This document shows positions 3,245 to 50,802 of a stretch of 54,247 nucleotides of DNA, one piece after another. Origin of the DNA: a virus. Both the position numbers and the translations under genes were made by a program. The notes beneath the pieces are model-generated. The model saw only the letters and a list, made by a program, of their open reading frames with translations. It searched no databases and was not told where the DNA came from. The stretch spans positions 1-54,247 of IMG/VR virus record IMGVR_UViG_3300020196_000050, one strand, 5' to 3'. Within the stretch, counting starts at the first letter, position 1; each line of letters begins with the position of its first letter.

Positions 3245-4378
3245 ATGAAAATTAAACTAGAATACATTTGGTTAGACGGGTATAAACCAGAACCAAACCT
3301 CAGAAGCAAAGTTAAAATTGTCAAATACGATGAAGTTAAAAATTCGTTTTTAGATGGCAACTTTCCAATATGGAACTTTGATGGATCATCAACAAATCAA
3401 GCCGATACAGGAAACTCAGATTGTTTATTAAACCCCGTCAGACACTATATTCCACAAACTTTTCCACTAGAAAACAATACCGTTTATGTTTTGTGTGAGG
3501 TATTAAACCCTGATGGTACACCACATGAAACAAATAAAAGATCCGAAATTGGTGAAGGTTTCGAGGATCTTTGGTTTGGTTTTGAACAAGAATATTTTAT
3601 TCGTGAAGAAATAAATGGAAGTATTTTGGGCCATAAAAGAAATATTCTTAAAGGTCAAGGTGAATACTATTGTGGTGTTGGACATAATGTGGTAGGTAGG
3701 TCATTTGTGGACGAACATTTGAATATGTGTTTAAATTATGGAATCAATATTACCGGTATAAACGCAGAAGTTGCATTAGGTCAATGGGAATATCAAGTAT
3801 TTTCGGAAGGAAAACATAAAGGGGGGGACGATCTTTGGATGACAAGGTACTTACTCTATAAAGTTTCAGAGAAATATGGATATCATATTGAACTGCATCC
3901 GAAACCTTTAACTCATGGTGAATGGAACGGATCGGGGATGCACACAAACTTTTCAACAGATAAAATGAGAAATGAACGAGACGAAAAATATTTTATGGCA
4001 CTATTTAATGCATTTGAATCAAGACACCAAGATCATATTAGGGCTTATGGATCACAAAACCATTTGAGACTTACAGGTCAATTCGAGACACAATCAATTG
4101 ATAAGTTTAGTTGGGGTGTGTCTGATCGTGGAGCATCAATCAGGGTACCACAGGGCACGGCAAACGAATGGAAAGGTTATGTTGAAGATAGAAGACCAGG
4201 ATCAAATGCGGACCCATACAAAATTATTTCTGAAATTGTAAAGTCACTTAACACAACGCACCAAATTTACGAAATGAAAAATATGATGAATTCACATGTT
4301 GATCTCAAATCATTAGAAGGAAAATATGGGACAAAATCCAACGATGAGTTATTAAAAGAATACAGAGAGGAGGAATGA
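3245..4378 (+). CDS. Glutamine synthetase, eukaryote-like type II (GSII)
   Basis: Condenses glutamate and ammonia to glutamine using ATP. The 377-residue length and motifs fit the short GSII class, not the longer GSI or GSIII. Beta-grasp motif WNFDGSSTNQA at 43-53, metal-binding GFEQEYF at 112-118, GINAEVALGQWEYQV at 171-185 (family usually has M-P where this has A-L), HTNFST at 233-238, and NHLRLTG through GASIRVPQ at 272-303. All core segments are present, so it should be catalytic. Its stop overlaps the DUF3310 start (ATGA). A glutamine synthetase is an unusual auxiliary metabolic gene for a phage; it may raise glutamine for nucleotide synthesis. Confidence 0.95.
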   Translation: MKIKLEYIWLDGYKPEPNLRSKVKIVKYDEVKNSFLDGNFPIWNFDGSSTNQADTGNSDCLLNPVRHYIPQTFPLENNTVYVLCEVLNPDGTPHETNKRSEIGEGFEDLWFGFEQEYFIREEINGSILGHKRNILKGQGEYYCGVGHNVVGRSFVDEHLNMCLNYGINITGINAEVALGQWEYQVFSEGKHKGGDDLWMTRYLLYKVSEKYGYHIELHPKPLTHGEWNGSGMHTNFSTDKMRNERDEKYFMALFNAFESRHQDHIRAYGSQNHLRLTGQFETQSIDKFSWGVSDRGASIRVPQGTANEWKGYVEDRRPGSNADPYKIISEIVKSLNTTHQIYEMKNMMNSHVDLKSLEGKYGTKSNDELLKEYREEE

Positions 4379-7692: not shown

Positions 7693-8694
7693 ATGAAAAA
7701 TAAAATTGTTTTAACAGAAGAAGAATCAAATAGGATTTTATCATTACATAAGAAAAGAATACAAAAAGAAAGAAATCTAATTAACGAAGGTGAAACTTAT
7801 AAAGATCCCGGACAATCTACAGGTAGAATCATGGCAGCTTCTGGTTCAGGTGCAGGAACAGGCGCTCTTATAGGGCTTGCAGCAGCAGGACCTGCAGGTG
7901 CGGCTGTGGGTGCTGTTATTGGAGCTGGTGTTGGAGCACTTGCGGGTTGGTTAACTACAGGGGGTGGATATGCCGATAGAGTTAGAAAGGCTTTTGTATT
8001 TTGTAGAAACAATAGACAAAACATGGGAAAACCTGTGAACAGTATTGAAACTCTTCGTGGGATTGCAGATAATTTTCATGCTGCTACTTCAGGTTTTGGT
8101 ACAGATGAAAGATTGATACAGAACAATTTAAGAATGTTAAAAACAATTCCCGATTTATGTAAAATAAGCGAAATTTATCAACAAAGATTTAATGAAACTT
8201 TATTTGAAAACTTTGATGGAGACATTGATTTGGATAATGATTGGAGGGATTATGTTTGGATTCCTATAAGTGAGTTGGCAAAGAAAACTAAAAAAATACC
8301 TGATGAAAAACTCAAAGAAAATGCTAAAGCATGTGGTTGGGGTAATGATGTAGACGGATATAGGAACTCTGGATGGAGATGTCCAAAAGACAAATCAAAA
8401 AATGAAAAAGAAGAAAAGGCTAAAAGATGTGGTCACGCTAATTGGGAAGATTATAAAAATAGTGGGTGGAAATGTAATAATGTGGTACCAGACCCAGATC
8501 CACGACCACGAAGAGGTCAAAGATATTCTTTCAACTACCAAGACGCTTTAAATGCACTTAAAAAGAAAAAATGTTCTTCTGGATCAGGTGGTGAAGAAGG
8601 TGAAGATAATTTCACCGATGATTGGAAAGCCACTACAGAAAAGAAAGTAGACACTACGGTGACTACTGATAACTTCTCAAATTGGAGTAAATAA
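7693..8694 (+). CDS. Annexin-like repeat protein with capsid-targeting-like N-terminus
   Basis: 333 residues. The N-terminus MKNKIVLTEEESNRILSLHK fits the shared segment and reaches LINE|G at 30-33, a gp21-type cleavage site. Residues 50-90 form a Gly/Ala-rich glycine-zipper stretch able to insert in membranes. Residues 121-182 resemble one annexin repeat: SGFGTDERLIQNNLRML, later IYQQRFNETLFENFDGDIDL. Two Cys repeats follow (211-230 and 243-261; pattern CG...Y.NSGW.C), then a charged tail. A TATTTATA box lies 16 nt upstream. Candidate head-packaged protein that contacts the host membrane. Confidence 0.8.
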   Translation: MKNKIVLTEEESNRILSLHKKRIQKERNLINEGETYKDPGQSTGRIMAASGSGAGTGALIGLAAAGPAGAAVGAVIGAGVGALAGWLTTGGGYADRVRKAFVFCRNNRQNMGKPVNSIETLRGIADNFHAATSGFGTDERLIQNNLRMLKTIPDLCKISEIYQQRFNETLFENFDGDIDLDNDWRDYVWIPISELAKKTKKIPDEKLKENAKACGWGNDVDGYRNSGWRCPKDKSKNEKEEKAKRCGHANWEDYKNSGWKCNNVVPDPDPRPRRGQRYSFNYQDALNALKKKKCSSGSGGEEGEDNFTDDWKATTEKKVDTTVTTDNFSNWSK

Positions 8695-8707: not shown

Positions 8708-8941
8708 ATGAGTAAAATTCAAATAACCCAAAGACAATACAACAAATTAAAAGAAAATATTGTTGAATCCGCCTTACTTACTGAAGCAAGCAATACGTAT
8801 AATGAAGTAATTACCATTCAAAGAGCTTTAAATAAATGTTTTTCTGCTGGTATAAGTGAAGACGGTATCTGTGGACCAAGTACCAAAAACGCAATCGAAA
8901 AATACCTTCAAATACCGGTTAGTATTGAGACATACGATTAA
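8708..8941 (+). CDS. Small peptidoglycan-binding protein with capsid-targeting-like N-terminus
   Basis: 77 residues. MSKIQITQRQYNKLKENIVE matches the shared N-terminal segment, and LLTE|A at 23-27 fits the prohead protease rule. The remainder (33-70) is a minimal PG_binding_1 domain: ALNKCFSAGISEDGICGPST then KNAIEKYL. It sits 13 nt after the annexin-like gene, probably in the same transcript. If cleaved, the mature protein would be just the wall-binding domain. Confidence 0.8.
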   Translation: MSKIQITQRQYNKLKENIVESALLTEASNTYNEVITIQRALNKCFSAGISEDGICGPSTKNAIEKYLQIPVSIETYD

Positions 8942-9030: not shown

Positions 9031-9046
9031 ATGCATTTTTTTTTCT

Positions 9047-9054
9047 TAAATTTG
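9047..9054 (+). promoter_or_regulatory. TAnnTTTG (TAAATTTG) -7 element, 4 nt before ATG
   Basis: Box, TGTC, then the ATG at 9059; the transcript would start at or next to the ATG. Confidence 0.6.
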
Positions 9055-9058
9055 TGTC

Positions 9059-9448
9059 ATGGAAAAAGTATTATACATTGTCAGGGGTGTACCAGGATCA
9101 GGAAAAACGACATTAGCACAACAATTAACGGCAAATGTATTTGAAGCTGATCACTATTTTTATGATAATGATGGAAACTATAATTTTGTTCCTTCAGAAA
9201 TAAAAGAGGCCCATAAAGAATGTCAGGAGTTTGTTGGACATGCCATGACATCAGGTATTAAAAAAATTGCGGTATCCAATACCTTCACACAAGAGTGGGA
9301 AATGGAACCGTACTTTAAACTTGCAAAAGAACATGGATATGTGGTCTTTAGTATTGTGGTTGAAAATAGACACGGTGGAGTTAATCAACACGGAGTTCCT
9401 GAAGATAAGTTAGAACAAATGAAAAATCGTTTTGAATTTAAGTTATGA
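9059..9448 (+). CDS. P-loop kinase, polynucleotide-kinase-like (copy 1)
   Basis: 129 residues with Walker A GVPGSGKT at 10-17 and a small AAA_33/PNK-type fold; FEADHYFYDNDGNYNF and SNTFTQEWEMEPYFKLAKEH follow. This type is seen in phages and in eukaryotic N4BP2-like proteins, and may phosphorylate nucleic-acid ends or nucleotides. It is about 90% identical to the protein at 29656-30045. Its stop overlaps the metallophosphoesterase start, suggesting the two act together, perhaps on RNA ends. Confidence 0.85.
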   Translation: MEKVLYIVRGVPGSGKTTLAQQLTANVFEADHYFYDNDGNYNFVPSEIKEAHKECQEFVGHAMTSGIKKIAVSNTFTQEWEMEPYFKLAKEHGYVVFSIVVENRHGGVNQHGVPEDKLEQMKNRFEFKL

Positions 9449-10101
9449 TGAAATTTGATAAAATATTAACAACTGGTAGAGTGTGGATAACATCCGACAC
9501 TCACTACGATCACAAAAACATATGTCGAGGTATTACAAATTTTAGAACCCAAGATGGTCAAATATCTGCAGGATTCACAAGAAACTTCCAAAGCGTGTCT
9601 GAAATGAACGATGAGATTGTAAATAATATAAACTCCAAGGTTGGTCAAAATGATACTCTAATTCACTTGGGTAATGTTTCATTTGGTGGATTTGATAGGA
9701 TTGGAGAGTTTTTAGATCGTTTGATTTGTAAAAACGTACACTTAGTTTTAGGTAATCATGATCAACATATTAAAAACAATAGGTTTGAAATCCAAACTAA
9801 ATTCTTAAGTGTTAATCATTATTTGGAGGTAAAAATACATGATGTAAACTTTGTTTTATGTCACTATCCATTAGCTAGTTGGTACGGACTAAAAAAAGGT
9901 GTTATCCACCTTCACGGTCATGTTCACTTAAATGCAAAAAACAAATGGGGTAACGGTAAAAAGTTGGATGTTGGTATGGATGGAAATTCTATGCATCCCT
10001 ATAGTGTTTCTGAAATTGTACACATGATGGACAAACGAAGTATAGGATCGGACATTTCAAATGATTACAACTTAGATGACCTAGTTGGAGTTGTTGGGTA
10101 A
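9445..10101 (+). CDS. Metallophosphoesterase, variant with altered metal-site residue
   Basis: 218 residues with calcineurin-type motifs: SDTHYDH (17-23), GNHDQH, CHYPLASW and HGHVH. The second motif, normally GD, reads LGNVSFGG (Asn77, codon AAT), so the bridging metal ligand is replaced. The paralogue at 52593-53267 keeps LGDWSFGG at the same place. The protein is otherwise intact, so it may have reduced or changed activity. Overlaps the kinase gene by 4 nt; a second ATG three bases later is an equally good start. Confidence 0.85.
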   Translation: MMKFDKILTTGRVWITSDTHYDHKNICRGITNFRTQDGQISAGFTRNFQSVSEMNDEIVNNINSKVGQNDTLIHLGNVSFGGFDRIGEFLDRLICKNVHLVLGNHDQHIKNNRFEIQTKFLSVNHYLEVKIHDVNFVLCHYPLASWYGLKKGVIHLHGHVHLNAKNKWGNGKKLDVGMDGNSMHPYSVSEIVHMMDKRSIGSDISNDYNLDDLVGVVG

Positions 10102-10128: not shown

Positions 10129-11370
10129 ATGAAAAAAATCATAATCACTAATAATCAACTCAAGTTAATTACTGAGGCCTTAGGGGTCCCTGATAATATA
10201 TTAAACGCCGCTGATATGTTATATGATGTTGTTGAAAGAGATATTAAATCCATCGATACAAAACAAGATGAGTATACTTTTAATGGTAATATTCGATTTG
10301 AATTAGGAGACAAGAAAAAAGTTAAAATTGATTCATATAAACTCACTGTAAATCTTGAAAAAATTGATGGAGAGGAAGGAGTTTTAGATATAGTTCAAAT
10401 GACCATGGGCGGATTTTTTGGGTTCGACAGAGATAAATTTATGAAACAAAATCAACCTTCGAGTACTTTGGAATTAATAATTACATTTGCGGTAGGAGAC
10501 AATTGGAGACCCAAAGAACTTATAAAAAAAATGGAAGAAGAGAGGGATGAACATGTCTCTAGTTTAGCTCACGAAATTAAACACAAGTATGATAAACAAT
10601 CCAAATTATATGGTTTGATTGGTCCTGACGCAGAATATCAAGCTATTCAAAAACGAGGAACTTTCGGAATACCAGTTTTAGATACAGTTTTTTTTAGATA
10701 TATGTATTATATCTCGGGAATCGAAAACCTTGTTAGACCAACAGAGGTTGCTTATTCCATGAAAAGAAAAAATATCACAAAGTCTCAATTTAGAGAGTTT
10801 TTGGAAAATAACAGAGTTTATAAAGAATTATTAGAAATAAAAAACTTTACATATGATGATTTTATTAACCAATTAAAAGGAAGTGAAGATAGACTTAATG
10901 CACTTTTAGAGCACATAGGTGAGGAACCTTCCGAAATGAATATTGATGAAAAAATTAATAAAGTTTTAGAAGTGGCTTACATTGATTTGGTTAACAATAA
11001 AATGGAACTATTCATAAATATGACAGAGCACGAAAGTGACATATTTTTAGAATTTGCGGAATCACTTGGTATTTTAACTTCTGATGTTAAAGAAAGAATA
11101 AAAGAATTACAAAAAACAAATGAGATTAGACAAAAATTTTTAAAATATGTAACCAAGTATCAGGACAATCCTAAAAAATTTTTCGAAGTGGAAATTGAAA
11201 AATTTAACTATGTTTCAACTAAAATGTTAAAAAAGATTGGAAAACTATACGCAATGGCAAAAGATGATGAGAGTCAAGTTAATGAATCAATTTTGAATTG
11301 GGATCTCTATCAAAAAATTATGGAAAAAAAATATGGTAAGAGGAAAATATCCACAACATATAAATATTAA
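10129..11370 (+). CDS. Zincin-like putative protease with capsid-targeting-like N-terminus
   Basis: 413 residues. MKKIIITNNQLKLITE|ALG is a clear shared N-terminal segment ending in a gp21-type site (I-T-E|A, cleavage after residue 16). HEIKH at 148-152 is a zinc-protease HExxH, and Glu206 in RPTEVAYSMKRK is a likely third ligand (gluzincin-type). The C-terminal half is helical. Two other proteins here (23875-24927, 32332-33312) share the arrangement HExxH then P/x-x-E-[VIM]. Candidate virion-packaged metalloprotease; substrate unknown. Confidence 0.8.
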   Translation: MKKIIITNNQLKLITEALGVPDNILNAADMLYDVVERDIKSIDTKQDEYTFNGNIRFELGDKKKVKIDSYKLTVNLEKIDGEEGVLDIVQMTMGGFFGFDRDKFMKQNQPSSTLELIITFAVGDNWRPKELIKKMEEERDEHVSSLAHEIKHKYDKQSKLYGLIGPDAEYQAIQKRGTFGIPVLDTVFFRYMYYISGIENLVRPTEVAYSMKRKNITKSQFREFLENNRVYKELLEIKNFTYDDFINQLKGSEDRLNALLEHIGEEPSEMNIDEKINKVLEVAYIDLVNNKMELFINMTEHESDIFLEFAESLGILTSDVKERIKELQKTNEIRQKFLKYVTKYQDNPKKFFEVEIEKFNYVSTKMLKKIGKLYAMAKDDESQVNESILNWDLYQKIMEKKYGKRKISTTYKY

Positions 11371-12059: not shown

Positions 12060-12301
12060 AAATGAAAATGAATGATTTTGAATTTGCTGAGAGGTTTTTA
12101 TTATCCTTAAATGTGGGTGAAGGATACAACGATGTGGTCGTGGTTAAAAAAACCAAAAAAAGGATTCATTTATCTAATGGTAAAATTGTCTCAATTAAAA
12201 ATGGTGGTGGGTTTTTATATTTGGACTCTGCTAAAAATGGTATAAGTCAAATTTTAAGAGACATTGAGGGTTATTTAATTTATAAAATACATTGTCAATA
12301 A
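12056..12301 (+). CDS. Small unknown protein, 81 aa
   Basis: MKMKMNDFEFAERFLLSLNV followed by a predicted beta domain (DVVVVKKTKKRIHLSNGKIV). No motif recognised. Start overlaps the previous stop by 4 nt, and its stop overlaps the next ATG by one base (TAATG), so translation is likely coupled. Confidence 0.7.
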   Translation: MKMKMNDFEFAERFLLSLNVGEGYNDVVVVKKTKKRIHLSNGKIVSIKNGGGFLYLDSAKNGISQILRDIEGYLIYKIHCQ

Positions 12302-12477
12302 TGAAAAAACCCTGTAAGGAGTGCCCACACCTTATTCGTAATCGTCATAATGATATGATTGTGGAGTTCGGAAAAAGAACTGGAAAGAAACACAACTGTC
12401 ATATGACAGAAGGAAAAAAAGATTTGTGGAATGTAACGGATAAAAAACTTGAATGTTATGGAAGTAAAAATGATTAA
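12301..12477 (+). CDS. Small Cys/His protein, DUF6283-like zinc-binding (copy 1)
   Basis: 58 residues from the ATG at 12301. Pattern CKECPHL, then HNCHMTEGKKDLW, then LECYG: four Cys plus His suggest a small metal-binding knuckle, as in the DUF6283 group. A nearly identical copy begins at 54109 and runs off the window; the DNA matches closely for about 140 bases. Function unknown; possibly nucleic-acid or protein binding. Confidence 0.75.
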   Translation: MKKPCKECPHLIRNRHNDMIVEFGKRTGKKHNCHMTEGKKDLWNVTDKKLECYGSKND

Positions 12478-14701: not shown

Positions 14702-17080
14702 ATGGAATATATTAAAAATCTTAATGAAATATCCTTAAAAGATATAAATCTTGTAGGTGGTAAAAATGCTTCGTTAGGAGAAATGATACAAAATGTGGAA
14801 TCTTTAAACATAAGAATACCTAATGGTTTTGCTATTACAACTAAGGCTTATTATGAGTTTATAAATTACAATAATTTAAATAAAAAAATATCTGATTTAA
14901 TATCCAATTTGAATGCAGATGACCTAAACAACTTGAAGTTGGTTGGTTCTGAAATTAGACAATTGATTCGAAACGGATTTTTTCCTGAAGATTTAAAAAA
15001 AGAAATTTTCTTATCTTATGAAAATTTATGTAAATTTTATTGTGTAGAAATGATTGATGTCGCAGTCAGGTCATCTGCAACCGCCGAAGATTTACCTGAC
15101 GCAAGTTTTGCCGGTCAACAAGAAACTTTTCTGAATGTTAGGGGATTTCAATCAATTTTAGAAGCGATAAGAAATTGTTTTGCGTCCCTTTTTACTGATA
15201 GAGCAATCTCATACAGAAACACATTCAAATATAATCATTTGGACATTGGTCTTTCAGTTTGTATTCAAAAAATGGTTAGGTCAGATTTGGCATCTTCTGG
15301 TGTTGCTTTTTCATTAGATACAGAAAGTGGTTTTAAAGATGTAGTACTTATAAACTCATCTTATGGGTTGGGAGAAATGATTGTTCAAGGTGCAATATCT
15401 CCAGACGAATTTATCGTATTCAAACCATTATTGAAAAACAATTTTTCATCCATCATAGAAAAAAAATTGGGTAATAAAGACAAAAAAATGATTTACGGTG
15501 AAGAACATGGTAAACTTACAAAAATTGTCAGCGTTTCCGAAAAACAAAAAGAACAGTTTTCAGTTACTGATTCTCAAGTTTTGGAAATTGCAAAATGGGT
15601 AACATCTATCGAAGAATATTATTCGAAAATAAAAAAAAAATGGTGTCCAGTCGATGTTGAATGGGCTATAGACGGATTGACTAATGATTTATACATTGTC
15701 CAAGCTAGACCAGAAACAATACATTCAAGAAAAAATCAAAGTAATTTAGTAGAATATAAAGTCAAATCTGAAGGGCACACACCTATTGTCAAAGGAATTG
15801 CAGTTGGTGATGGAGTATCTACAGGTCGCGTTACTGTCATGAATTCCTTAGATGAAGTAGTATTTCAAGAAGGAAATATTTTGGTTACAGATATGACAGA
15901 CCCAGATTGGGAGCCAATAATGAAGAAAGCTTCCGCTATAATAACAAATAAAGGTGGAAGAACTTGTCATGCGGCAATTGTTGCAAGGGAAATGGGTTTA
16001 ACGGCAATAGTTGGATGTAACAATGTGACTGAAATTCTTGAAGATGATGATTTAGTAACTGTTTCTTGCGCTGAAGGTGAAACAGGCCTCGTGTATAAAG
16101 GTATTATCGATTTTGAAAAAACTGAAACTAATATAGATGATTTACCAAAAATTGATACTCCAATTATGTTTAACATTGCAAGTCCAGAAATTGCATTCAA
16201 ATTTTCACACTTACCAAATGCTGGCGTTGGTTTAGCAAGAGAGGAATTTATTATCAATAATTACATAAAAATTCACCCTTTAGCACTATTGAACCACAAC
16301 AAAATTGCTGACAAAAACTTATCAAATCAAATAAAGAACATTATTTCTGGTTATAAAGATGAAGAAACTTTTTTTGTCAAGAGATTAAGTTATGGAATTG
16401 CAAGAATAGCGTCTGCTTTTTATCCAAATAAGGTGATTGTCAGATTGTCGGATTTTAAATCTAATGAATATTACAACCTGCTTGGTGGAAATTATTTTGA
16501 ACCCAAAGAAGAAAACCCTATGATTGGATGGAGAGGAGCCTCGAGATATTATTCTGAAGAATATGAAGAAGCTTTTGGAATGGAAATAAAGGCGATTAAA
16601 AGAGTTCGTGAGAAAATGGGTTTAGAAAACGTTGTAGTTATGATTCCTTTTTGTAGAACAGTTGATGAATTACTTAAAGTTTATCAGACGATGGAAAAAT
16701 ACGGATTAAAAAGAAGAGAAAAGGGACTTGAAATTTATTTGATGGCTGAATTACCATCTAACATTTTTTTAGCTGATGAATTTTCGAAACATATCGATGG
16801 ATTTTCAATTGGGTCCAATGATTTAACACAATTAACTTTAGGCTTAGATAGAGACTCTTCATTAGTCGCACATATCTATGATGAAAGAAACACCGCAGTC
16901 AAAAGAGCGATTTCACATCTTATAGAAGTTTCTAAACAAAATAATGTCAAAGTTGGAATATGTGGTCAAGGGCCAAGCGATTTTCCTGATTTTGCTAAAT
17001 TTTTAGTAGATTTAGGAATTGATAGTATTTCTGTGACACCTGACTCATTATTGAAAACTTTGAAAGCTCTTCAAAAATAA
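14702..17080 (+). CDS. ppsA: Phosphoenolpyruvate synthase
   Basis: 792 residues, full family length. It converts pyruvate plus ATP to PEP, AMP and phosphate. N-terminal ATP-grasp GGKNASLGEMI, then VRSSATAEDLPDASFAGQQE; swivelling phosphohistidine domain GGRTCHAAIVAREMG with catalytic His423; C-terminal TIM barrel with GICGQGPSDFPD (Cys754) and GSNDLTQLTLGLDRDS. The glycine-rich loop and both catalytic residues are intact. Related pyruvate phosphate dikinase is longer. A PEP synthase in a phage would redirect pyruvate towards PEP for sugar or aromatic precursors during infection. Confidence 0.95.
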   Translation: MEYIKNLNEISLKDINLVGGKNASLGEMIQNVESLNIRIPNGFAITTKAYYEFINYNNLNKKISDLISNLNADDLNNLKLVGSEIRQLIRNGFFPEDLKKEIFLSYENLCKFYCVEMIDVAVRSSATAEDLPDASFAGQQETFLNVRGFQSILEAIRNCFASLFTDRAISYRNTFKYNHLDIGLSVCIQKMVRSDLASSGVAFSLDTESGFKDVVLINSSYGLGEMIVQGAISPDEFIVFKPLLKNNFSSIIEKKLGNKDKKMIYGEEHGKLTKIVSVSEKQKEQFSVTDSQVLEIAKWVTSIEEYYSKIKKKWCPVDVEWAIDGLTNDLYIVQARPETIHSRKNQSNLVEYKVKSEGHTPIVKGIAVGDGVSTGRVTVMNSLDEVVFQEGNILVTDMTDPDWEPIMKKASAIITNKGGRTCHAAIVAREMGLTAIVGCNNVTEILEDDDLVTVSCAEGETGLVYKGIIDFEKTETNIDDLPKIDTPIMFNIASPEIAFKFSHLPNAGVGLAREEFIINNYIKIHPLALLNHNKIADKNLSNQIKNIISGYKDEETFFVKRLSYGIARIASAFYPNKVIVRLSDFKSNEYYNLLGGNYFEPKEENPMIGWRGASRYYSEEYEEAFGMEIKAIKRVREKMGLENVVVMIPFCRTVDELLKVYQTMEKYGLKRREKGLEIYLMAELPSNIFLADEFSKHIDGFSIGSNDLTQLTLGLDRDSSLVAHIYDERNTAVKRAISHLIEVSKQNNVKVGICGQGPSDFPDFAKFLVDLGIDSISVTPDSLLKTLKALQK

Positions 17081-19477: not shown

Positions 19478-19867
19478 ATGAAAGTGTTAGTTAAATACAA
19501 AAACTCCTCAATTGGTAAAAATAAAATGGAATTTTATAATAAATTTATTAAATTCCTACAGAAAGAATTACCATTAAAAAATGATGTTAGTATTTGTTTT
19601 TTAGGTGAGAGAGAAGGGAAAATGACTACAGGTAGTAGAACTGATAATAGTGAACTTAAAATACTATGTAAAAACAGAATGACTCGTGATATTTTAAGAA
19701 CATTAGGACATGAATGGGTTCATGAGTACCAAATAAATGTTTTGGGTAGAGAACACGGTCCTGACATTGGGGGTCAGAATGAGGATGAGGCTAATGCTTT
19801 TGCAGGTCAAATGATGAAAAAATTTGAAAAAAAATATCCTCGCGAGGAGGATATGATGTACGATTAA
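19478..19867 (+). CDS. Small zincin-like protein (HEWVH)
   Basis: 129 residues. LGHEWVHEYQ places HExxH at 78-82, and EDEANAFAGQMM supplies Glu104 as likely third zinc ligand, a layout like ImmA/IrrE or related minimal proteases. The first 60 residues form a small alpha/beta part. It lacks the shared N-terminal segment but has a TATTTATT box. It could be a peptidase acting on host regulators; substrate unknown. Confidence 0.75.
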   Translation: MKVLVKYKNSSIGKNKMEFYNKFIKFLQKELPLKNDVSICFLGEREGKMTTGSRTDNSELKILCKNRMTRDILRTLGHEWVHEYQINVLGREHGPDIGGQNEDEANAFAGQMMKKFEKKYPREEDMMYD

Positions 19868-23874: not shown

Positions 23875-24927
23875 ATGAGCAATAGTCAACTTAAAATATT
23901 AATGACCGAAGAACAATTCAATCAACTATTGAATGAGGATAGGGGGGTCAACAGAGCGTCTATATCGTATAGTAATATTATATTAGAAAAAATTGAACCT
24001 TATATTTTAAACTCATTAAAGTCTAAAAAATCTGAAACGATTAAATTTAAAATCCCATTGAATGATTTATCGAGCGTGTGGGAGAATGATTTAGAAGGTT
24101 ATTCCGAATTCCCCATTTTTGAGATTAGAGTAGAGTTGAATATATCAATCCAAACGAAGAATCAAATGGATTACCTTTTTAGTACTGGTGGAGGGGCTGA
24201 ACAAATTAACGATAATAGTACTGAAGATTCTTTTGTATCATTACCACCAAGAGGTTTACCTAAAAATGTGAAAGAAATGATTGATTCTAGTTTAAGTGCA
24301 AAATTTAGTTTTGATGTTTTCTTAAGGAAAGATGTTGGTGAAAATGATAAACAAGATTTAATATACGATTTAAGGGATACAATTTTACACGAAACAAATC
24401 ACATGTTAGAATTTTTCAAAAAACATGAGAATAGTTCTGGTAATATTGACGTAGCATTAAGTTACGCAGGTAAAAGGAATTTTAATGTGCCTAATCACAT
24501 ATATGAAATATGGAGAGAATTTCAAACAATGGTGTATTTCTCGGAACCATATGAAATGAGGGCTATGGTACAGGAAATGTATAGTGTTAGATTAAGAAAA
24601 CCGTTTGAAGCGTTTAAACAACATAGATATTATAAAGCGGCAGAAATAATGGAAAATTTTAACGCTGATAAAATGTTTGATGTTCTTATCCAAAGAATAG
24701 AAGATTACAATCCTGATTACCTAATACCAATATTAACTAACTTATGGAAATGGTTTATTTCTGAATATTTTGCAATGTTAGAAGCTCAAGGATTCACACC
24801 TAACAAAAAGTTAGAAAAATCAGTACATATTTTGGATATTATGAAATTATTACAACCAAGGATTAATAAAGCTGGTTCAAGACTAAAAAGAAAATTTAAT
24901 ACCTTATATTCCATATCACCTGATTGA
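23875..24927 (+). CDS. Zincin-like putative protease with capsid-targeting-like N-terminus
   Basis: 350 residues. MSNSQLKILMTEEQFNQLLN then E|D is the shared segment (L-N-E site). HETNH at 172-176 in TILHETNHMLEFF is HExxH; Glu227 in SEPYEMRAMVQEMY is the likely third ligand. Before this lies a beta-rich part (residues 25-130). It shares the general plan with 10129 and 32332, but pairwise similarity is low. Candidate head-packaged protease. Confidence 0.78.
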   Translation: MSNSQLKILMTEEQFNQLLNEDRGVNRASISYSNIILEKIEPYILNSLKSKKSETIKFKIPLNDLSSVWENDLEGYSEFPIFEIRVELNISIQTKNQMDYLFSTGGGAEQINDNSTEDSFVSLPPRGLPKNVKEMIDSSLSAKFSFDVFLRKDVGENDKQDLIYDLRDTILHETNHMLEFFKKHENSSGNIDVALSYAGKRNFNVPNHIYEIWREFQTMVYFSEPYEMRAMVQEMYSVRLRKPFEAFKQHRYYKAAEIMENFNADKMFDVLIQRIEDYNPDYLIPILTNLWKWFISEYFAMLEAQGFTPNKKLEKSVHILDIMKLLQPRINKAGSRLKRKFNTLYSISPD

Positions 24928-25057: not shown

Positions 25058-26920
25058 ATGAGTAAAATTATTGGTATTGACTTAGGTACTACAAATTCAT
25101 GTGTTGCAGTCATGGAAGGTAGTGAACCTGTAGTAATTACGAACAGTGAAGGGAAAAGAACCACACCTTCAATTGTAGGATTTATTAATGGTGGTGAAAG
25201 AAAGATTGGGGACCCTGCTAAAAGACAGTCGGTAATTAATCCTGATAAAACTGTACACTCAATCAAAAGATTTATGGGGTCTAGTTTTGACGAAACTAAA
25301 AGTGAAGTCAAAAGAGTACCTTATAAAGTTGTTAGTGAAAAAAACAACCCTAAAGTTTCTATTGATAATAGAAAATACACCCCACAAGAAATTTCGGCAA
25401 TGATTTTACAAAAGATGAAACAAACTGCCGAAGATTACTTGGGGGAAACTGTTACTGAAGCGGTTATCACAGTACCAGCATATTTTAATGATGCCCAAAG
25501 ACAAGCAACTAAAGAAGCAGGTGAGATTGCGGGGTTAAATGTTAGACGAATAATTAATGAACCTACGGCCGCTGCGTTGGCGTATGGTCTTGATAAAAAG
25601 TCTAAGGATATGAAAATTGTGGTATTTGACTGTGGTGGAGGAACTCACGATGTTTCTATTTTAGATTTAGGTGACGGTGTGTTTGAAGTACTATCAACAG
25701 ATGGAGATACCCATCTTGGGGGTGATGATTTTGACCAAGTAATTATTGATTGGTTAGTAAGTGAATTTAAAGATGAAAATGGGTTAGACCTTAAACAAGA
25801 TTCAATGGCCTTACAGAGACTTCGAGAATCTGCGGAAAAGGCTAAAATTGAGTTATCATCCACAAATAGTACTGAAATAAATCTACCGTACATTATGCCT
25901 GTTGACGGTATTCCAAAACACTTGGTTAGAACTTTAACAAAATCTAAATTTGAACAACTTATAGATGGTTTGATTTCTAGAACTATCAATCCTTGTAAAA
26001 CGGCATTAAAAAATGCGGGTCTAAAGGTTAGTGACATAGATGAGATTATTTTAGTTGGTGGGTCAACACGTATTCCTGCAATTCAGGAGGCGGTTAAAAA
26101 ATTCTTCAGTAAAGAACCATCTAAAGGGGTTAACCCTGATGAAGTTGTTGCACTTGGGGCGGCAATTCAGGGAGGAGTTTTAGGCGGAGATGTTAAAGAT
26201 GTTCTATTGTTAGATGTTACACCTCTATCATTAGGTATCGAAACCATGGGAGGTGTGTATACAAAATTAATTGAGTCTAACACGACAATCCCAACTAAAA
26301 AATCACAGGTATTCTCAACTGCAGTTGACAACCAACCATCTGTTGAGATTCACGTATTACAGGGTGAAAGATTAATGGCTAAAGATAACCGAACTATCGG
26401 AAGATTCCATTTAGACGGTATCCCACCATCAATGAGAGGGGTTCCTCAAATCGAAGTAACATTTGATATAGACGCTAACGGTATAATTAATGTATCAGCG
26501 TTGGATAAGGGGACAAACAAACAACAAACAATTCGTATTGAAGCTTCATCAGGTTTATCAAAAGATGAGATTGAGAATATGAAACGTGAAGCGGAGTTAA
26601 ATGCGGAATCGGATAAAAAGGCAAAAGAAGAAGCAGAGATTTTAAACGGGGCTGATAGTACGATATTTAATGTTGAAAAGACACTAAAAGACCTTGATGA
26701 TAAAATCTCAGAAGAACAAAAATCGGAAATAGTGGAATCACTTGAAAAACTAAAAGAGGCTCATAAAAATAAAGATATTGAGTCTATCAAATCAACGACA
26801 GATGAAGTGAACACTAAATTTCAAAAAATTACACAAGACTTATATAGTCAGGTAAATGACCAAATGGGGGACATTAATTTTGATGGGTCAGATGTGGAAT
26901 TTGAGGAAGTTGGTAAATAA
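25058..26920 (+). CDS. dnaK: Chaperone DnaK (Hsp70)
   Basis: 620 residues, near the bacterial length. ATPase motifs: [18 protein letters not shown] at the start, [15 protein letters not shown], and the phosphate-2 loop DCGGGTHD at 191-198, where bacterial DnaK usually has DLGGGTFD. The linker [19 protein letters not shown] and substrate-binding domain ([20 protein letters not shown]) and helical lid are complete, ending EFEEVGK. It folds proteins with DnaJ and GrpE, which would come from the host. Viral DnaK is uncommon and may aid virion assembly. Confidence 0.97.
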
Positions 26921-29450: not shown

Positions 29451-29659
29451 TCGTCATCATCATTCTCCTTTTTCTCATCGGAAATAGGTGGCATCATACC
29501 TGTAATCCAGATATCAAAAATCATGAATCCTGACCAATATATAATCTCGTTGATATTGTATTCTGAAGGGTCTGTGGTGTACATAAAAAGTACGTATACA
29601 ACTTTGAATACAATGTATATTTTAATCGCACCAACTATAAGACTTAAAAATTTTATCAT
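29426..29659 (-). CDS. Small membrane protein, 77 aa
   Basis: Two hydrophobic stretches (FLSLIVGAIKIYIVFKVVYV and IIYWSGFMIFDIWITGM) and an acidic tail (EKKENDDDDYLEGSLK). Its start overlaps the kinase stop by ATGA, so it is co-expressed with that gene. Function unknown. Confidence 0.65.
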   Translation of the reverse strand: MIKFLSLIVGAIKIYIVFKVVYVLFMYTTDPSEYNINEIIYWSGFMIFDIWITGMMPPISDEKKENDDDDYLEGSLK

Positions 29660-30045
29660 AACTTAAATTCAAAACGATTTTTCATTTGTTCTAACTTGTC
29701 TTCAGGAACCCCGTGTTTATTAACACCACCGTGCCTATTTTCAACCACAATACTGAAGACCGTATATCCATGTTCTTTTGCAAGTTTGAAATATGGTTCC
29801 ATTTCCCAATCTTGTGTAAAGGTATTGGACACCGCAATTTCTTTGATACCCGATGTCATAGCATGTCCAACAAACTCTTGACATTCTTTATGAGCCTCTT
29901 TTATTTCTGAAGGGACAAAATTATAATTACCATCGTTATCATAAAAATAGTGGTCGGCCTCAAATACGTTCGATGTCAATTGTTTAGCAAATGTTGATTT
30001 TCCTGAACCAGGTATCCCGCGAACAATATATAAAATTTTATCCAT
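29656..30045 (-). CDS. P-loop kinase, polynucleotide-kinase-like (copy 2)
   Basis: 129 residues, same length as the protein at 9059-9448 and differing at about a dozen positions. Walker A is GIPGSGKS. The DNA and protein closeness implies a recent duplication or an exchange between related phages. Here it is paired with a membrane protein instead of a metallophosphoesterase. Promoter TATATTTG 4 nt upstream. Confidence 0.85.
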   Translation of the reverse strand: MDKILYIVRGIPGSGKSTFAKQLTSNVFEADHYFYDNDGNYNFVPSEIKEAHKECQEFVGHAMTSGIKEIAVSNTFTQDWEMEPYFKLAKEHGYTVFSIVVENRHGGVNKHGVPEDKLEQMKNRFEFKL

Positions 30046-30049
30046 AGTA

Positions 30050-30057
30050 CAAATATA
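30050..30057 (-). promoter_or_regulatory. TAnnTTTG (TATATTTG) -7 element, 4 nt before ATG
   Basis: Minus-strand box, TACT, then the ATG at 30045. Confidence 0.6.
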
Positions 30058-30104
30058 AACACTTTTTGTTTAATAAACAACTATTTATTAAGAAACGTTT
30101 TTGT

Positions 30105-30842: not shown

Positions 30843-31874
30843 TCACTTATGATATCTATCTAAAGAATTTTTTGTTATAAAAATAACCTCAGATTCCTTA
30901 AATTCTTCTAAATTTTTGGAGTTTGTGTAAGACATAGCGGATTTTAAATAATCTATAAAATTTTCAGTCCATGAACTCAAGGTTGTTTCAACCTTGTTTA
31001 GTTTAACAATACCTTCAGATGTTGTTAATTTTTTCTTACCCCATTTCTTTTGGACTTCTTTAGTACTCATTCCTCTAAATTGTTTATAGAAATGTTTTCT
31101 AAGTTTTGGGAAATTATCCCATAAATATTTGGACTTAATCTCATCTAATGGGATTAATTTAAATAGTAAATTCTCCGAACATGATTCGAGTGTTTTATTT
31201 AACACTCCACCTAACATAACATAATCCGACCCTAAGGCTAATGCCTTAATTATATCATCATAATTTCTAAATCCACCATCGGCAACTATTTTTGTTTTAT
31301 ATTCACCTGAAAATTTGATTCGATAACACTCGTTAATTAATGACGCCATTGGGTAATGTACTCCAGTGTTTGCTGATGTTAAGCAACCACTACCACCACC
31401 AATCCCAACACGAACATAGTCAACACCAATCTCCGCAAATTTTTCATATGTTTTTGGATTGGCAATATTACCAACCATTAGTTTATGATTTGGGGTTTTT
31501 CTATTCTCAATAAATTTTTTACAAAGAGTATGTAATTTTTCCATGTGACCATTTGCAATATCAACAAGAATTTTTATTTTCTCATTATTAAACACAGGCC
31601 AATCCTCCCAACTAACTATAGTTTCAAATTCATCTAAAGAAAGGGAGATAAAAATTTCTTGATTATTAGGGTTTAGTCCTCTTGGTAAACATACTTCAAA
31701 ACCTTCCTTAACAAACTTTTTGTAATTATTTAAATCAACTACTGTGTCCATGGGAGACACAAACAAAGGTAAGGTACCTTCAGAATTATATATGTCTATC
31801 TCCGACCTACTATTAATAGTTGAGATAGTTTCGGGAACTAATGTAATATCTTTAAAATCAAATCTTTTTTCCAT
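30843..31874 (-). CDS. GMP reductase (IMPDH/GMPR family)
   Basis: 343 residues, GMP reductase length with no CBS domains. FDFKDITLVP start, PLFVSPMDTV, VDIANGH, then GIGGGSGCLTSANTGVHYP holding the catalytic Cys of the GxGSxC loop, VADGGFRNYDDIIKALALGS and FRGMSTKE. It would reduce GMP to IMP with NADPH, returning guanine nucleotides to the IMP node; IMP dehydrogenase activity cannot be fully excluded. Follows the thioesterase gene by 3 nt in the same operon. Confidence 0.85.
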   Translation of the reverse strand: MEKRFDFKDITLVPETISTINSRSEIDIYNSEGTLPLFVSPMDTVVDLNNYKKFVKEGFEVCLPRGLNPNNQEIFISLSLDEFETIVSWEDWPVFNNEKIKILVDIANGHMEKLHTLCKKFIENRKTPNHKLMVGNIANPKTYEKFAEIGVDYVRVGIGGGSGCLTSANTGVHYPMASLINECYRIKFSGEYKTKIVADGGFRNYDDIIKALALGSDYVMLGGVLNKTLESCSENLLFKLIPLDEIKSKYLWDNFPKLRKHFYKQFRGMSTKEVQKKWGKKKLTTSEGIVKLNKVETTLSSWTENFIDYLKSAMSYTNSKNLEEFKESEVIFITKNSLDRYHK

Positions 31875-32331: not shown

Positions 32332-33312
32332 ATGTTAACGAAAAAAGAAATAGATAGAGTAAACGACATACTAAAAAATAGAATATTCAAGTATTCAAAA
32401 GGATTATTTGATTACGATTTACCAGGTGAAAATGATTTCGATTTTAAATTCCAAATTTTAGGTTATAAACAAATGATTAGTGTTGGGGAATATTATGACT
32501 ATCTTCGTGTATCGGTAACACTTTTAAATTTTAGAGATATATTAAGTCAAAAAGTTTTTCTAAGATTGGGTAAACAAGGTGATTTCTTAAACAAATATTT
32601 TAAAGAAAATATGTATTTTTTTAGAAATAATTTACGTGAGGAGATTAGAGCTATAATGTCTATGTTTGAACCTAATGTACTAATAACAATTGAGGATGTA
32701 AGTATTGATACGGGTAATGAAAAAGAATCATTACAAGAACAAAAAATGACTAGAGAGGCTATAAGAAATGTTGTAAAAGATATTACCTATATTTTAAAAA
32801 GTGGTAGAAAAGGTGAGTTTACTTTACCTGATAATGATGAAGGTGTTGGATATAAGTTTAATAGATTTCCCGTAGAATTTACACTTGAACTATCAGTTGA
32901 AGTGGATAATAACATAGATAGGTTTCAAATAAATGCCGAATATTCAAAGAGTGATGATGTGATTGAAATGATAGTTAGGTATAATCCATCTAAATTAAAA
33001 ACTCAGATGTACGACATTATTGGAGAATTAAATGAAACAATTGCTCATGAGTTAGAACATAGTTTACAGGGATACCGTAACGAATTCCCAACTAAAAAAG
33101 GTAGAAAAGTTACAAATCCTTTAAAGTATTATTTACAACCTCACGAAATTCCTGCGCAAATTGCGGGATTTAAACGACTATCAAGAATTCAAAAAGTGCC
33201 ATTAGAAGATGTAATTAGACAATGGTTTGACACTCACACTGACATTCACAATTTAAATAATAACCAACAAGAAAAAGTAATTCAAACACTATTAGATTAT
33301 AGTAAATCTTAA
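32332..33312 (+). CDS. Zincin-like putative protease, 326 aa
   Basis: HELEH at 239-243 in TIAHELEHSLQGY and Glu272 in LQPHEIPAQIAGFKR as likely third ligand. The N-terminus MLTKKEIDRVNDILKNRIFK is related in style to the shared segment but has no clear cleavage site. Residues 20-120 and 155-225 are beta-rich. Plan matches 10129 and 23875. Ends 4 nt into the convergent membrane gene. Confidence 0.75.
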   Translation: MLTKKEIDRVNDILKNRIFKYSKGLFDYDLPGENDFDFKFQILGYKQMISVGEYYDYLRVSVTLLNFRDILSQKVFLRLGKQGDFLNKYFKENMYFFRNNLREEIRAIMSMFEPNVLITIEDVSIDTGNEKESLQEQKMTREAIRNVVKDITYILKSGRKGEFTLPDNDEGVGYKFNRFPVEFTLELSVEVDNNIDRFQINAEYSKSDDVIEMIVRYNPSKLKTQMYDIIGELNETIAHELEHSLQGYRNEFPTKKGRKVTNPLKYYLQPHEIPAQIAGFKRLSRIQKVPLEDVIRQWFDTHTDIHNLNNNQQEKVIQTLLDYSKS

Positions 33313-47285: not shown

Positions 47286-47359
47286 GGTCCTGTAGCATAA
47301 TTGAATAATGCAACTCACTTCTAATGAGTAGACTCCAGGTTTGAATCCTGGCAGGACTA
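47286..47359 (+). tRNA. tRNA-Arg (anticodon TCT)
   Basis: Acceptor GGTCCTG/CAGGACT, D-arm GCAT/ATGC, anticodon stem ACTCA/TGAGT with loop CTTCTAA, T-arm CCAGG/CCTGG. No encoded CCA. Reads AGA, common in this AT-rich genome. Confidence 0.92.
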
Positions 47360-47371
47360 CAACTTTAAAAT

Positions 47372-47473
47372 ATGGAAGATATACACCAACAAATTCACGA
47401 AGATTTCATTAATTCAGAAGAATACGAATCTTATCTGAAAGAAATGTCTATTTGGGAAGAAAAATATTCCTGA
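47372..47473 (+). CDS. Tiny unknown protein, 33 aa
   Basis: MEDIHQQIHEDFINSEEYES, ending MSIWEEKYS. Acidic helix. Sits between the tRNA and the TATCTTTG promoter of the next gene. Weak support. Confidence 0.4.
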   Translation: MEDIHQQIHEDFINSEEYESYLKEMSIWEEKYS

Positions 47474-47501
47474 ACAATACCACGCAATTAAAAAATTATT
47501 G

Positions 47502-47509
47502 TATCTTTG
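47502..47509 (+). promoter_or_regulatory. TAnnTTTG (TATCTTTG) -7 element, 4 nt before ATG
   Basis: Box, TGAT, then the ATG at 47514. The box overlaps the upstream extension of the open frame, which supports 47514 as the start. Confidence 0.65.
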
Positions 47510-47513
47510 TGAT

Positions 47514-48119
47514 ATGAAAACTTACTCATTCTTAAAAGACGTTGTATATGTGGCATTGGTAATGATTGTTATTGGTGGCCTTTATGAATACTTAGAAAAA
47601 CATAATTGGGATTATTCATCCATAATCACGGGTGACTTGCTTAAACAAAGACCTATTGAGACTACAAGTATGAATACCTATGATGATTTGGGTAACATTG
47701 TTTATATAAAAGGTTTAGGTAATTTTAGTCACTCTGATTTGTTAAGAGCTGAAAGTGTAATCGAAGGATATTACAACACGCACTGTACTATCGAGAGTCC
47801 TGTTATGTTAGACGACAAATATTACAGTTCAAACGTGATTAAAGGCCACGAAGCTCTTGACCATTTAAGAGTTTCAGGTAAAAAAGTTATTTATGTGACT
47901 AATGATGAAATGATGTCGACTGAAACCGATAAAAGTATAAAAGGATGTGCAAGAATTAATGGTAACACTATAATTGTTAGAACTAAAACATTAAAAAGAA
48001 CTTTAGTTCACGAATACGCACATACTTTAGGTTTGGACCACTGTGATAATAATGGTTGTGCGTTAGCGAAGGGCCATGGAGAAGAACTTTGTTTTGAGTG
48101 TAAAAGTAAAATTAAATAA
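47514..48119 (+). CDS. Membrane-anchored archaemetzincin-like metalloprotease
   Basis: 201 residues from the ATG at 47514 (MKTYSFLKDVVYVALVMIVI), with a transmembrane helix at about 8-30. HEYAH at 166-170 extends to HEYAHTLGLDHC, then a Cys four residues on and CFEC near the end. This matches the archaemetzincin pattern HExxHxxGxxxCxxxxC...CxxC, except that the Met after the second Cys is Leu. A likely zinc protease; target unknown. It lacks the capsid-targeting-like start and uses the early-type promoter. Confidence 0.78.
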   Translation: MKTYSFLKDVVYVALVMIVIGGLYEYLEKHNWDYSSIITGDLLKQRPIETTSMNTYDDLGNIVYIKGLGNFSHSDLLRAESVIEGYYNTHCTIESPVMLDDKYYSSNVIKGHEALDHLRVSGKKVIYVTNDEMMSTETDKSIKGCARINGNTIIVRTKTLKRTLVHEYAHTLGLDHCDNNGCALAKGHGEELCFECKSKIK

Positions 48120-48127
48120 TAAAAGTT

Positions 48128-48535
48128 ATGACTCAGGTGGGATTTTTTATTGTGGGAAAACCTGTAGATGGTGAAATGGAAGATACTATCTTCAGTGAAA
48201 TGAGAGATATTCTAACAAGTGAAGACTTTAACAAGATTGCATTTTGTGAAAATGAAGAAAGTCATGACATTTTGTATACTTTTTTAAATGAAATCAAAAA
48301 TAAAAAATTGTTTATTCTGTTTGAAAAATATGAAGTGTTAGTTCATTTTTCGGATATTACACAAAGTGTGCTGAGACAAATTAATATGAACAAGACTTTG
48401 ACCGAAGGGGAATTTAAACCTTTGTTTGATGAATTTGTAAGTGAAAACTTAACTATTGATTTTATTCTTGACAAAATTAATGAAACTGGTATTGAATCTT
48501 TAACTAAAATTGATTATAAAGTGTTAAAATCATAA
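48128..48535 (+). CDS. Unknown protein, 135 aa
   Basis: MTQVGFFIVGKPVDGEMEDT, then helical and acidic segments (SEDFNKIAFCENEESHDILY). No motif recognised. Follows the archaemetzincin gene by 8 nt, so probably co-transcribed. Confidence 0.7.
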   Translation: MTQVGFFIVGKPVDGEMEDTIFSEMRDILTSEDFNKIAFCENEESHDILYTFLNEIKNKKLFILFEKYEVLVHFSDITQSVLRQINMNKTLTEGEFKPLFDEFVSENLTIDFILDKINETGIESLTKIDYKVLKS

Positions 48536-48546
48536 AATATAAAAAA

Positions 48547-48885
48547 ATGAAAGACTACAATAAATTTATGAATGAACTTAATGTATATAAAGGTTATTCA
48601 GTTACAAGAATTAAATTTGCAATCTTTATACATAAGTTTTTTAGAACATTCACCACTAAAGGATTTGAATTCATTGCTACTTTAACTTTAATGTTGGTTT
48701 TAGTTAGACTGATTATGGGTGAGTTAACTATTGGATATATAATGTCAACCGCAGTTGTACATTTTTTATATTGGATTTTGGTTTATCCGATACTATCGAA
48801 AGTTTTTGAAAATGATTTATACAAATTATTCTCACTTCGTATTAGAATTCTTGAGGATATCTTGGAAACAAAAAAGAGGACCTAA
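48547..48885 (+). CDS. Membrane protein, 112 aa
   Basis: Two or three hydrophobic helices (GFEFIATLTLMLVLVRLIMG and IMSTAVVHFLYWILVYPIL) with charged ends. No family recognised. It ends in a terminator shared with the convergent gene at 48918. Confidence 0.65.
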   Translation: MKDYNKFMNELNVYKGYSVTRIKFAIFIHKFFRTFTTKGFEFIATLTLMLVLVRLIMGELTIGYIMSTAVVHFLYWILVYPILSKVFENDLYKLFSLRIRILEDILETKKRT

Positions 48886-48897
48886 ATCCTCTTTTTT
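48872..48897. terminator. Bidirectional terminator
   Basis: AAAAGAGGA, CCTAAA, TCCTCTTTTTT, overlapping the end of the plus-strand gene. Confidence 0.8.
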
Positions 48898-48917
48898 AAT
48901 ATTAATAGTTTTTATAA

Positions 48918-49601
48918 TTATCTACTACTTTTTTTACCTGCGTTCCAGTTGGCTACAACAAATATAATTGAGAATATTGAAATCATAAAAGTGAGAACCG
49001 ATAAAGGACCTCCATAGTTACCAACGGCACCGTCAATTAAAAAGTGCATTCTAGTTAAAAATTCACTACTTGCCCAACCAGTATTATACCCCATTGCCCC
49101 AAAACCAATAATACTAGCCGCAACACCTGAAGGAATTCCGATAAGACCCATAAATCTGGCTAACCATCTTTTACCTGTATCAGCCCAAAAACCTTCAGCC
49201 ATTTCACCACTTGGTTCTTGGTTAGCCATTTGACCTAATTTTTCAGCCTCTCTGTCGGAGATTTCTTCTGTACCTAACTCGATAGTTGACGCAATTTTAC
49301 CAAAATTAGAAACACCTGCTTTATCTTTTAAAATGTCTAAACCTTCTTGAGCTTCTTCATCATCAAACTCATCTCTAAGTTTTGAAGTTACTCTTGCCGC
49401 GATACTTTTAGCTTTATCAATTGCGGACATGATTTTTTCTTTGAAACCAAACATTTCATTTAATTCTGATTCATTTAATCTACTATATTGTCTTCTTGAA
49501 GACCTATTACCATATCTCATTTGTTCTCTTTGATTTTCAGAAATAACTCGTTTAACAATTCTCATTAAATCTGATTCTGTTAATCTTATAACTTTTTTCA
49601 T
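48918..49601 (-). CDS. Membrane protein with capsid-targeting-like N-terminus, 227 aa
   Basis: MKKVIRLTESDLMRIVKRVI then SE|N is a model shared segment; further sites at LNE|S (42-45). A soluble stretch with an acidic helix follows, then hydrophobic segments (LARFMGLIGIPSGVAASIIG, LSVLTFMISIFSIIFVVANW) and a basic end. Like 33309-33944, a processed membrane protein that could be packed in the head. A TATTTATA box lies 31 nt upstream. Confidence 0.75.
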   Translation of the reverse strand: MKKVIRLTESDLMRIVKRVISENQREQMRYGNRSSRRQYSRLNESELNEMFGFKEKIMSAIDKAKSIAARVTSKLRDEFDDEEAQEGLDILKDKAGVSNFGKIASTIELGTEEISDREAEKLGQMANQEPSGEMAEGFWADTGKRWLARFMGLIGIPSGVAASIIGFGAMGYNTGWASSEFLTRMHFLIDGAVGNYGGPLSVLTFMISIFSIIFVVANWNAGKKSSR

Positions 49602-49642
49602 TACGTTTTTGATTTTTCTTTTTTTATTTTATTATAAATATT

Positions 49643-50005
49643 TTAAATTTCGTAAAATATTTTATATTTACCCGATTTAGTCATTTTTTTGGTTATTTTA
49701 CCTGTATAGTCAGTATCAGATGCTTTATCCATAATTCGTTGCCTAATCACATCCCAATTGTTATAGTCAACAAATTCTTCAGGATTTTCTTCCATCTCAT
49801 CTTCTATTTTTAATATATTATCGATAAAATATTCTCGTGGTGGAGTGTCTTTACCTGTGGTAATTTTTTTAATACCCCTACCAGCATCTCTAAGTTTGTC
49901 ACCTAACCATCCTTCCTCTACTTCAGGTTCGGATTGAGATTCATTAACAAGTTTACGGATTAACTCCGTTAACTCACTTTCAGTAAGTCTTACTTTCTTT
50001 TTCAT
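49643..50005 (-). CDS. Small protein with capsid-targeting-like N-terminus
   Basis: 120 residues from the ATG at 50005 (MKKKVRLTESELTELIRKLV then NE|S); the upstream extension overlaps the TATTTATA box. The remainder is polar and charged (GRGIKKITTGKDTPPREYFI) with no enzyme motif. Nearly the same targeting segment as 48918-49601, suggesting duplication of the leader. Confidence 0.75.
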   Translation of the reverse strand: MKKKVRLTESELTELIRKLVNESQSEPEVEEGWLGDKLRDAGRGIKKITTGKDTPPREYFIDNILKIEDEMEENPEEFVDYNNWDVIRQRIMDKASDTDYTGKITKKMTKSGKYKIFYEI

Positions 50006-50010
50006 ATATG

Positions 50011-50018
50011 TATAAATA
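50011..50018 (-). promoter_or_regulatory. TATTTATA box, 5 nt before ATG
   Basis: Minus-strand box before the ATG at 50005. Confidence 0.5.
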
Positions 50019-50095
50019 TTCAAAAATTACATAATGGGTATTGTAATAATAAAATATTTTTCATTGTTAATGTTGTGGGAATGGAAAAAAAGTTG

Positions 50096-50103
50096 TATCT
50101 TTG
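50096..50103 (+). promoter_or_regulatory. TAnnTTTG (TATCTTTG) -7 element
   Basis: 28 nt before the ATG at 50132, with a TTG about 21 nt further upstream. The longer frame from 50075 contains the promoter, so the later start is preferred. Confidence 0.6.
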
Positions 50104-50131
50104 TCAAACAAACAATTTAAAACTATACACC

Positions 50132-50578: not shown

Positions 50579-50589
50579 AAATATAGGTT

Positions 50590-50714: not shown

Positions 50715-50718
50715 CCTA

Positions 50719-50802
50719 ACTTGGGAGTGTTGAGCAACGGTTGCTTAGCTGACTGTAAATCAGTGGTCTACGACATTGGGGGTTCGAATCCCGCCCCGAG
50801 TA
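50719..50802 (+). tRNA. tRNA-Tyr (anticodon GTA)
   Basis: Acceptor ACTTGGG/CCCGAGT, anticodon loop CTGTAAA, long variable arm, T-loop TTCGAAT with one T-stem mismatch. About 84 nt, as expected for bacterial tRNA-Tyr. Confidence 0.88.

Follow-up and report, generated by a model that had tools for sequence, protein, structure and literature searches.

Does a phage gene encode an annexin, and if so, what is the protein for? The question is raised by an open reading frame at positions 7693-8694 on the plus strand of a 54,247-nucleotide fragment of an uncultured virus (IMG/VR record IMGVR_UViG_3300020196_000050; this whole stretch is referred to below as the window). Annexins are calcium-and-membrane-binding modules best known from animals and plants. 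The open reading frame encodes a protein of 333 amino acids with one annexin repeat, termed P0001, which is also found at 100% identity on contigs from other samples, and comparison with the orthologues from lineages L071, L067 and L082 indicates purifying selection on the gene (dN ~0.30, dS ~1.26). A sequence-only reading had described the protein as an annexin-like repeat joined to a glycine zipper in a candidate packaged protein, and the sequence features that it listed are all present, namely the annexin motif (SGFGTDERLIQNNL, residues 133-146, positions 8089-8130), FDGDIDL (residues 174-180, positions 8212-8232), a Gly/Ala stretch and two CG...Y.NSGW.C repeats. The features of the locus are given here by window position.

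7693..8694, plus strand: P0001, phage annexin-domain protein of 333 amino acids (open reading frame; purifying selection)
7693..7788, plus strand: predicted N-terminal propeptide or capsid-targeting peptide, residues 1-32, ending in I-N-E of the gp21 type L/I-x-E ([LI]xE counts; gp21 specificity, PMC9026906)
7822..7959, plus strand: Gly/Ala-rich hydrophobic, glycine-zipper-like segment, residues 44-89 (hydropathy; Pfam glycine-zipper matches below cut-off)
7969..8010, plus strand: extra helix ahead of the annexin repeat, residues 93-106, bearing the conserved Cys104 (AlphaFold2 model; cysteine column)
8044..8286, plus strand: annexin repeat, helices A-E, residues 118-198 (Pfam, phmmer, profile, AlphaFold2, Foldseek)
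8092..8109, plus strand: GFGTDE, predicted type II Ca2+-binding A-B loop, residues 134-139 (alignment; G-x-G-T in 30/33 rows)
8158..8160, plus strand: Cys156, conserved partner of Cys104 in a possible disulphide (both cysteines in 32/33 domains, neither in L106)
8215..8229, plus strand: DGDID, the D/E turn with predicted Ca2+ cap Asp177, 40 residues after Thr137 (in 33/33 rows; D columns invariant)
8332..8382, plus strand: C-terminal repeat 1, CGWGNDVDGYRNSGWRC, residues 214-230 (same motif in the L060/L057 relatives)
8428..8475, plus strand: C-terminal repeat 2, CGHANWEDYKNSGWKC, residues 246-261 (CG...Y.NSGW.C pattern)
8708..8941, plus strand: next gene, a 77-amino-acid protein with a similar N-terminal peptide and a PG_binding_1-like domain (Pfam E=1.4e-4; synteny)

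Searched as a single sequence, P0001 has Annexin (PF00191) as its top Pfam match at E=0.0014 and 19.1 bits, for a curated cut-off of 25, and phmmer against the PDB aligns it to annexin XII at 4.5e-6. When 33 domains from phage relatives are combined into a profile, 79 PDB sequences match with E<=0.01, 7.6e-36 being the strongest, and every one of the best 60 of these 79 is an annexin or an annexin fusion. Relatives also exceed the Pfam annexin cut-off on their own, as seen in 7/24 family records and at 31.5 bits for the relative L039. AlphaFold2 places helices of high pLDDT at residues 118-132, 139-147, 152-166, 170-177 and 181-198, in the A-E order of annexins, and the model of the domain by itself reaches pLDDT 87.7 and pTM 0.81. 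Each of the best 50 Foldseek matches of this domain model in the PDB is an annexin, giardin or a crystal of an annexin fusion, and several superpose on annexin repeats at 1.3 A over 60-62 residues. The E-values of these matches, from 0.04 upwards, are modest, as is probably to be expected of so short a domain. When a library of models of viral proteins was searched, A0A6J5RF64 came out best (probability 1.00, 1.7 A over 73 columns); it belongs to an uncultured phage and is uncharacterised. The profile search therefore bears out the annexin-like repeat, and the structure prediction that had been proposed as a check returned an annexin fold. The sequence positions of a type II Ca2+ site are also in place (GFGT134-137 and Asp177), with G-x-G-T kept in 30 and D[GS]D in all 33 of the aligned rows. 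By computation, P0001 is thus an annexin homologue in sequence and fold with its Ca2+ ligand positions conserved, and its domain would be expected to bind Ca2+ and lipid. There is one annexin repeat per protein, and the four-repeat core of eukaryotic annexins was not found, which does not set P0001 apart from bacterial annexins, as single repeats are known there too (PMC3894181). The full-length model of P0001 is poor outside the annexin part, so we make no claim on its tail.

As to the glycine zipper, a hydrophobic segment does lie ahead of the annexin domain, with a Kyte-Doolittle mean of 1.79 over 20 residues in P0001, and recurs in 27/28 lineages, whereas the Pfam glycine-zipper families score below their cut-offs (13.8 vs 28.9 bits and 13.0 vs 25 bits; PF13441 and PF13488). 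Matches of P0001 to PHROGs families, such as tape measure proteins, were driven solely by Gly/Ala content and were set aside.

P0001 is not the sole annexin of this phage. A paralogue with 29% overall identity, P0002, is encoded on G001, a contig of the same species that has 39,580 bases in common with the window at 99.98%. Both annexin genes of the species are represented on two overlapping contigs, and a further contig (G013) has two on one contig. Relatives were gathered stepwise, from P0001 and P0002 pooled and then from their relatives, giving overlapping sets of 67 and later 72 loci. Uncultured phages yielded 28 annexin lineages (<80% identity in the domain), on contigs of up to 322 kb, and no relative was found in 50,697 deposited phage records with P0001, P0002, L109 and three domain sequences as queries. 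Judged by sequence, an annexin-domain protein family is present in many related environmental phages. Its layout is nearly constant, running from an amphipathic N-terminal peptide with an [L/I]-x-E site, through a Gly/Ala hydrophobic segment and a two-cysteine annexin repeat, to a tail. The [L/I]-x-E site falls at residues 18-48 in 24/28 lineages, and two of the four lineages without it seem to be N-terminally truncated; the cysteine pair is found in 27/28 lineages, G-x-G-T in 24/28 and the acidic DGD turn in 28/28. In L106 the hydrophobic segment is missing together with the two cysteines, a double loss that would fit the two features belonging together in an oxidising, membrane-near place. 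Tails differ between lineages and are either peptidoglycan-binding-like or of the Cys-repeat type, the repeats in P0001 having no known function; EF-hand-like matches in the L035/L034 relatives fall below cut-off. A genome scan turned up cellular relatives of weak similarity and different architecture; most of them are Bacteroidota proteins that combine a membrane segment with two repeats. Short Bacteroidota proteins with a transmembrane segment plus annexin (L136-L138, L141-L144) have a similar layout. Two large proteins encoded in MAGs of Actinomycetes and Chloroflexi (L139, L140) carry four G-x-GT[DN]E motifs each.

Is the protein packaged, as the sequence-only reading supposed? In T4, internal proteins reach the head by way of N-terminal propeptides, and many of these proteins are then ejected into the cell; gp21 cleaves after L/I-x-E (PMC9026906). 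The corresponding site in P0001 is INE at residues 30-32. Across the family, [LI]xE occurs within residues 18-45 in 29/31 members, compared with 10.5 expected from shuffles, for a motif that is short and in members that are related, so that the counts are not independent events. Different N-terminal types all retain the site, and by analogy with T4 the peptide of P0001 would serve in targeting. The same phage encodes a T4-type terminase and head genes matching Peptidase_S77 (gp21-type, 9.7e-23, located on G001), Portal_T4 (gp20, 1.2e-76) and Gp23 (2.9e-35). Around residue 60 its own gp23 reads HLINE/ATSDG, a position similar to the length of the 65-residue T4 gp23 propeptide (PMC9026906). The P0002 gene lies just downstream of gp23, and its orthologues directly follow gp23 in several lineages; this adjacency is limited to the paralogue, the P0001 gene itself not being next to a capsid gene. 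The recurrent peptide, the gp21-type protease and the paralogue after gp23 together lend strong circumstantial support to the candidate packaged protein. Packaging and gp21 processing of P0001 are strongly indicated, and the annexin-domain protein is probably carried inside the phage head, ready for injection.

The amphipathic N-terminal motif starts 18/157 open reading frames of this phage, compared with 1.9 expected from internal windows, a count that is descriptive because the motif was defined after the sequences had been read. The same pattern starts only 3/212 in the related isolate Flavobacterium phage immuto, in which no annexin was found. Similar amphipathic starts (for example KKVIRLTESDLMRIVKRVISEN), most then followed by [L/I]-x-E, are seen in open reading frames at window positions 5851, 8708, 10129 and 23875, with further ones on the minus strand at 18591, 28598, 33309, 48918, 49643 and 53460. 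These otherwise unrelated proteins likely form a set of packaged proteins, and the common peptide points to some dozen further proteins of this phage that are likely to be packaged. A zinc-protease-like HExxH motif occurs in five open reading frames (10129-11370, 23875-24927, 32332-33312, 19478-19867 and 47499-48119), two of which carry a packaging-like N-terminus.

The gene following P0001 (8708-8941) starts 13 bases past it, and its PG_binding_1 match reaches 22.4 bits for a cut-off of 23. This order of P0001 and the 77-amino-acid neighbour is conserved in L071 and L067. The P0002 gene is followed by two genes for peptidoglycan-binding-like proteins, and L064 and L109 are among the members in which the annexin protein carries a domain of this kind as a fusion. 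A profile of such tails matches endolysin and other peptidoglycan-binding chains (4.4e-7), and also designed TPR proteins. As the matches fall just below the Pfam cut-offs, the link of phage annexins to peptidoglycan binding is probable and not proven.

The closest isolate capsids are those of Flavobacterium phage immuto and a Microcystis phage, at about 40% identity. The P0001 leader is A-rich and has no Shine-Dalgarno sequence, which together with a lipoprotein-like neighbour suggests a Bacteroidota host. Elsewhere in the window there are five tRNA genes at 47286-51271 (Arg, Ile, Leu, Phe and Thr), and open reading frames that by eye resemble host glutamine synthetase (3245-4378), PEP synthase (14702-17080), DnaK (25058-26920) and IMP dehydrogenase (30843-31874). 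An inverted gene duplicate, by eye a P-loop kinase, is found at 9046-9456 and 29648-30058 (87% identity over 411 bases). Near-repeats of 94% identity lie at 12301-12473 and 54109-54247, and G001 and the window diverge left of 14668, reflecting either variation between strains or the duplication of a block of genes. The end of G001 (about 100600-102672, L019-L020) consists of about 2 kb of low-complexity repeats that are self-similar throughout.

The architecture is conserved, the head genes are of T4 type, and there is linkage to gp23, through the paralogue, and to peptidoglycan-binding-like genes. With moderate confidence we favor the view that P0001 belongs to the cargo of the head, an internal protein that is trimmed by gp21, ejected, and docks at the cell wall and inner membrane in support of DNA entry. 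For this large phage of T4-like type, which probably infects Bacteroidota, the amphipathic peptide would send P0001 into the prohead core, where the gp21-type protease would cleave after the [L/I]-x-E site (INE32), and the protein would leave the head together with the DNA. The Gly/Ala-rich segment may then enter or line the host inner membrane, and the Cys-stapled annexin repeat would dock through its Ca2+ loop on phospholipid head groups of the periplasmic face. Peptidoglycan would be held by the C-terminal tail or by the separately encoded neighbour, so that annexin protein and peptidoglycan-holding part might jointly anchor or seal the DNA-entry site. The membrane-contacting injection factor suggested earlier would be a protein of this sort. 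Counting against envelope docking is the single repeat, whereas classical annexins use four.

It is unlikely that P0001 is packaged and ejected to act through its annexin domain on a cytoplasmic host target, in the manner of T4 Alt or IPI, for host take-over or counter-defence: ejection delivers T4 internal proteins that bear targeting peptides to the cytoplasm, where they act (PMC9026906), and variation of tails between lineages is expected of effectors, yet the hydrophobic segment (27/28 lineages), the conserved cysteine pair and the peptidoglycan-binding-like partners indicate the envelope. A late, membrane-anchored protein for lysis timing or superinfection exclusion, never packaged, would suit a membrane segment with a peptidoglycan-binding module and would resemble in layout the short Bacteroidota proteins described above. 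We also regard this as improbable, given that the N-terminal peptide is common to many unrelated phage proteins and ends in a gp21-type site, that the paralogue sits in the head module, and that no lysis gene was recognised adjoining P0001 among the window open reading frames. Quite improbable, too, is a head protein, in the core or near the portal, whose annexin fold serves purely for structure or oligomerisation and binds no lipid; a single repeat is a compact helical unit and the paralogue is linked to gp23, but the kept Ca2+ ligand positions (cap Asp 33/33, G-x-G-T 30/33) would be needless for such a use. Chance resemblance, P0001 having no annexin domain at all, agrees with the sub-threshold Pfam score of P0001 alone and is most improbable, being ruled out by the profile match to the PDB at 7.6e-36 and the Foldseek result of 1.3 A with solely annexins in the best 50, alongside relatives that exceed the Pfam cut-off.

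Returning to the favored internal head protein, we suggest tentatively, and with less confidence than for P0001 itself, that the widespread phage annexins may be a class, so far unrecognised, of ejected proteins that dock on membranes when triggered by Ca2+, are loaded into the head by a genome-wide signal, and build or seal the DNA entry site with peptidoglycan-binding partners. This suggests a testable means by which protein-packaging phages could engage inner membrane and cell wall at DNA entry. Phage annexins with an intact Ca2+ loop also represent a viral branch in the debated evolutionary history of annexins. A survey of 2014 reported no annexins in viruses (Kodavali et al., PMC3894181), and our phrase search of the literature, limited in reach, turned up nothing published on annexins of phages or other viruses; priority is therefore not claimed with certainty.

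Among known systems, crAss001 gp45 is an ejection or cargo protein with a proposed role in a membrane channel for DNA (PMC10172136). P0001 has a glycine-rich stretch like gp45, the predicted transmembrane helix being that of gp45; the weak phmmer match between them (E=0.0041) is confined to the low-complexity Gly/Ala stretch and is not evidence of homology, and gp45 gives no annexin match. Like T4 IPI-III and Alt, P0001 combines an N-terminal peptide, an [L/I]-x-E site, a gp21-type protease and a signal common to several cargo proteins. Unlike the T4 internal proteins, the family has a peptide of about 28-32 residues instead of 10-19, and membrane and annexin domains. With annexins (PF00191), notably the bacterial ones, P0001 has in common the five-helix repeat, the G-x-GTDE loop and the acidic D/E-turn residue. 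Bacterial annexins may have one repeat, transmembrane segments and extra domains, and are reported to be almost cysteine-free (PMC3894181). Unlike them, the proteins described here are phage-encoded, have an extra helix before the single repeat and an almost invariant cysteine pair, and join the annexin domain to a phage targeting peptide and peptidoglycan-binding-like tails.
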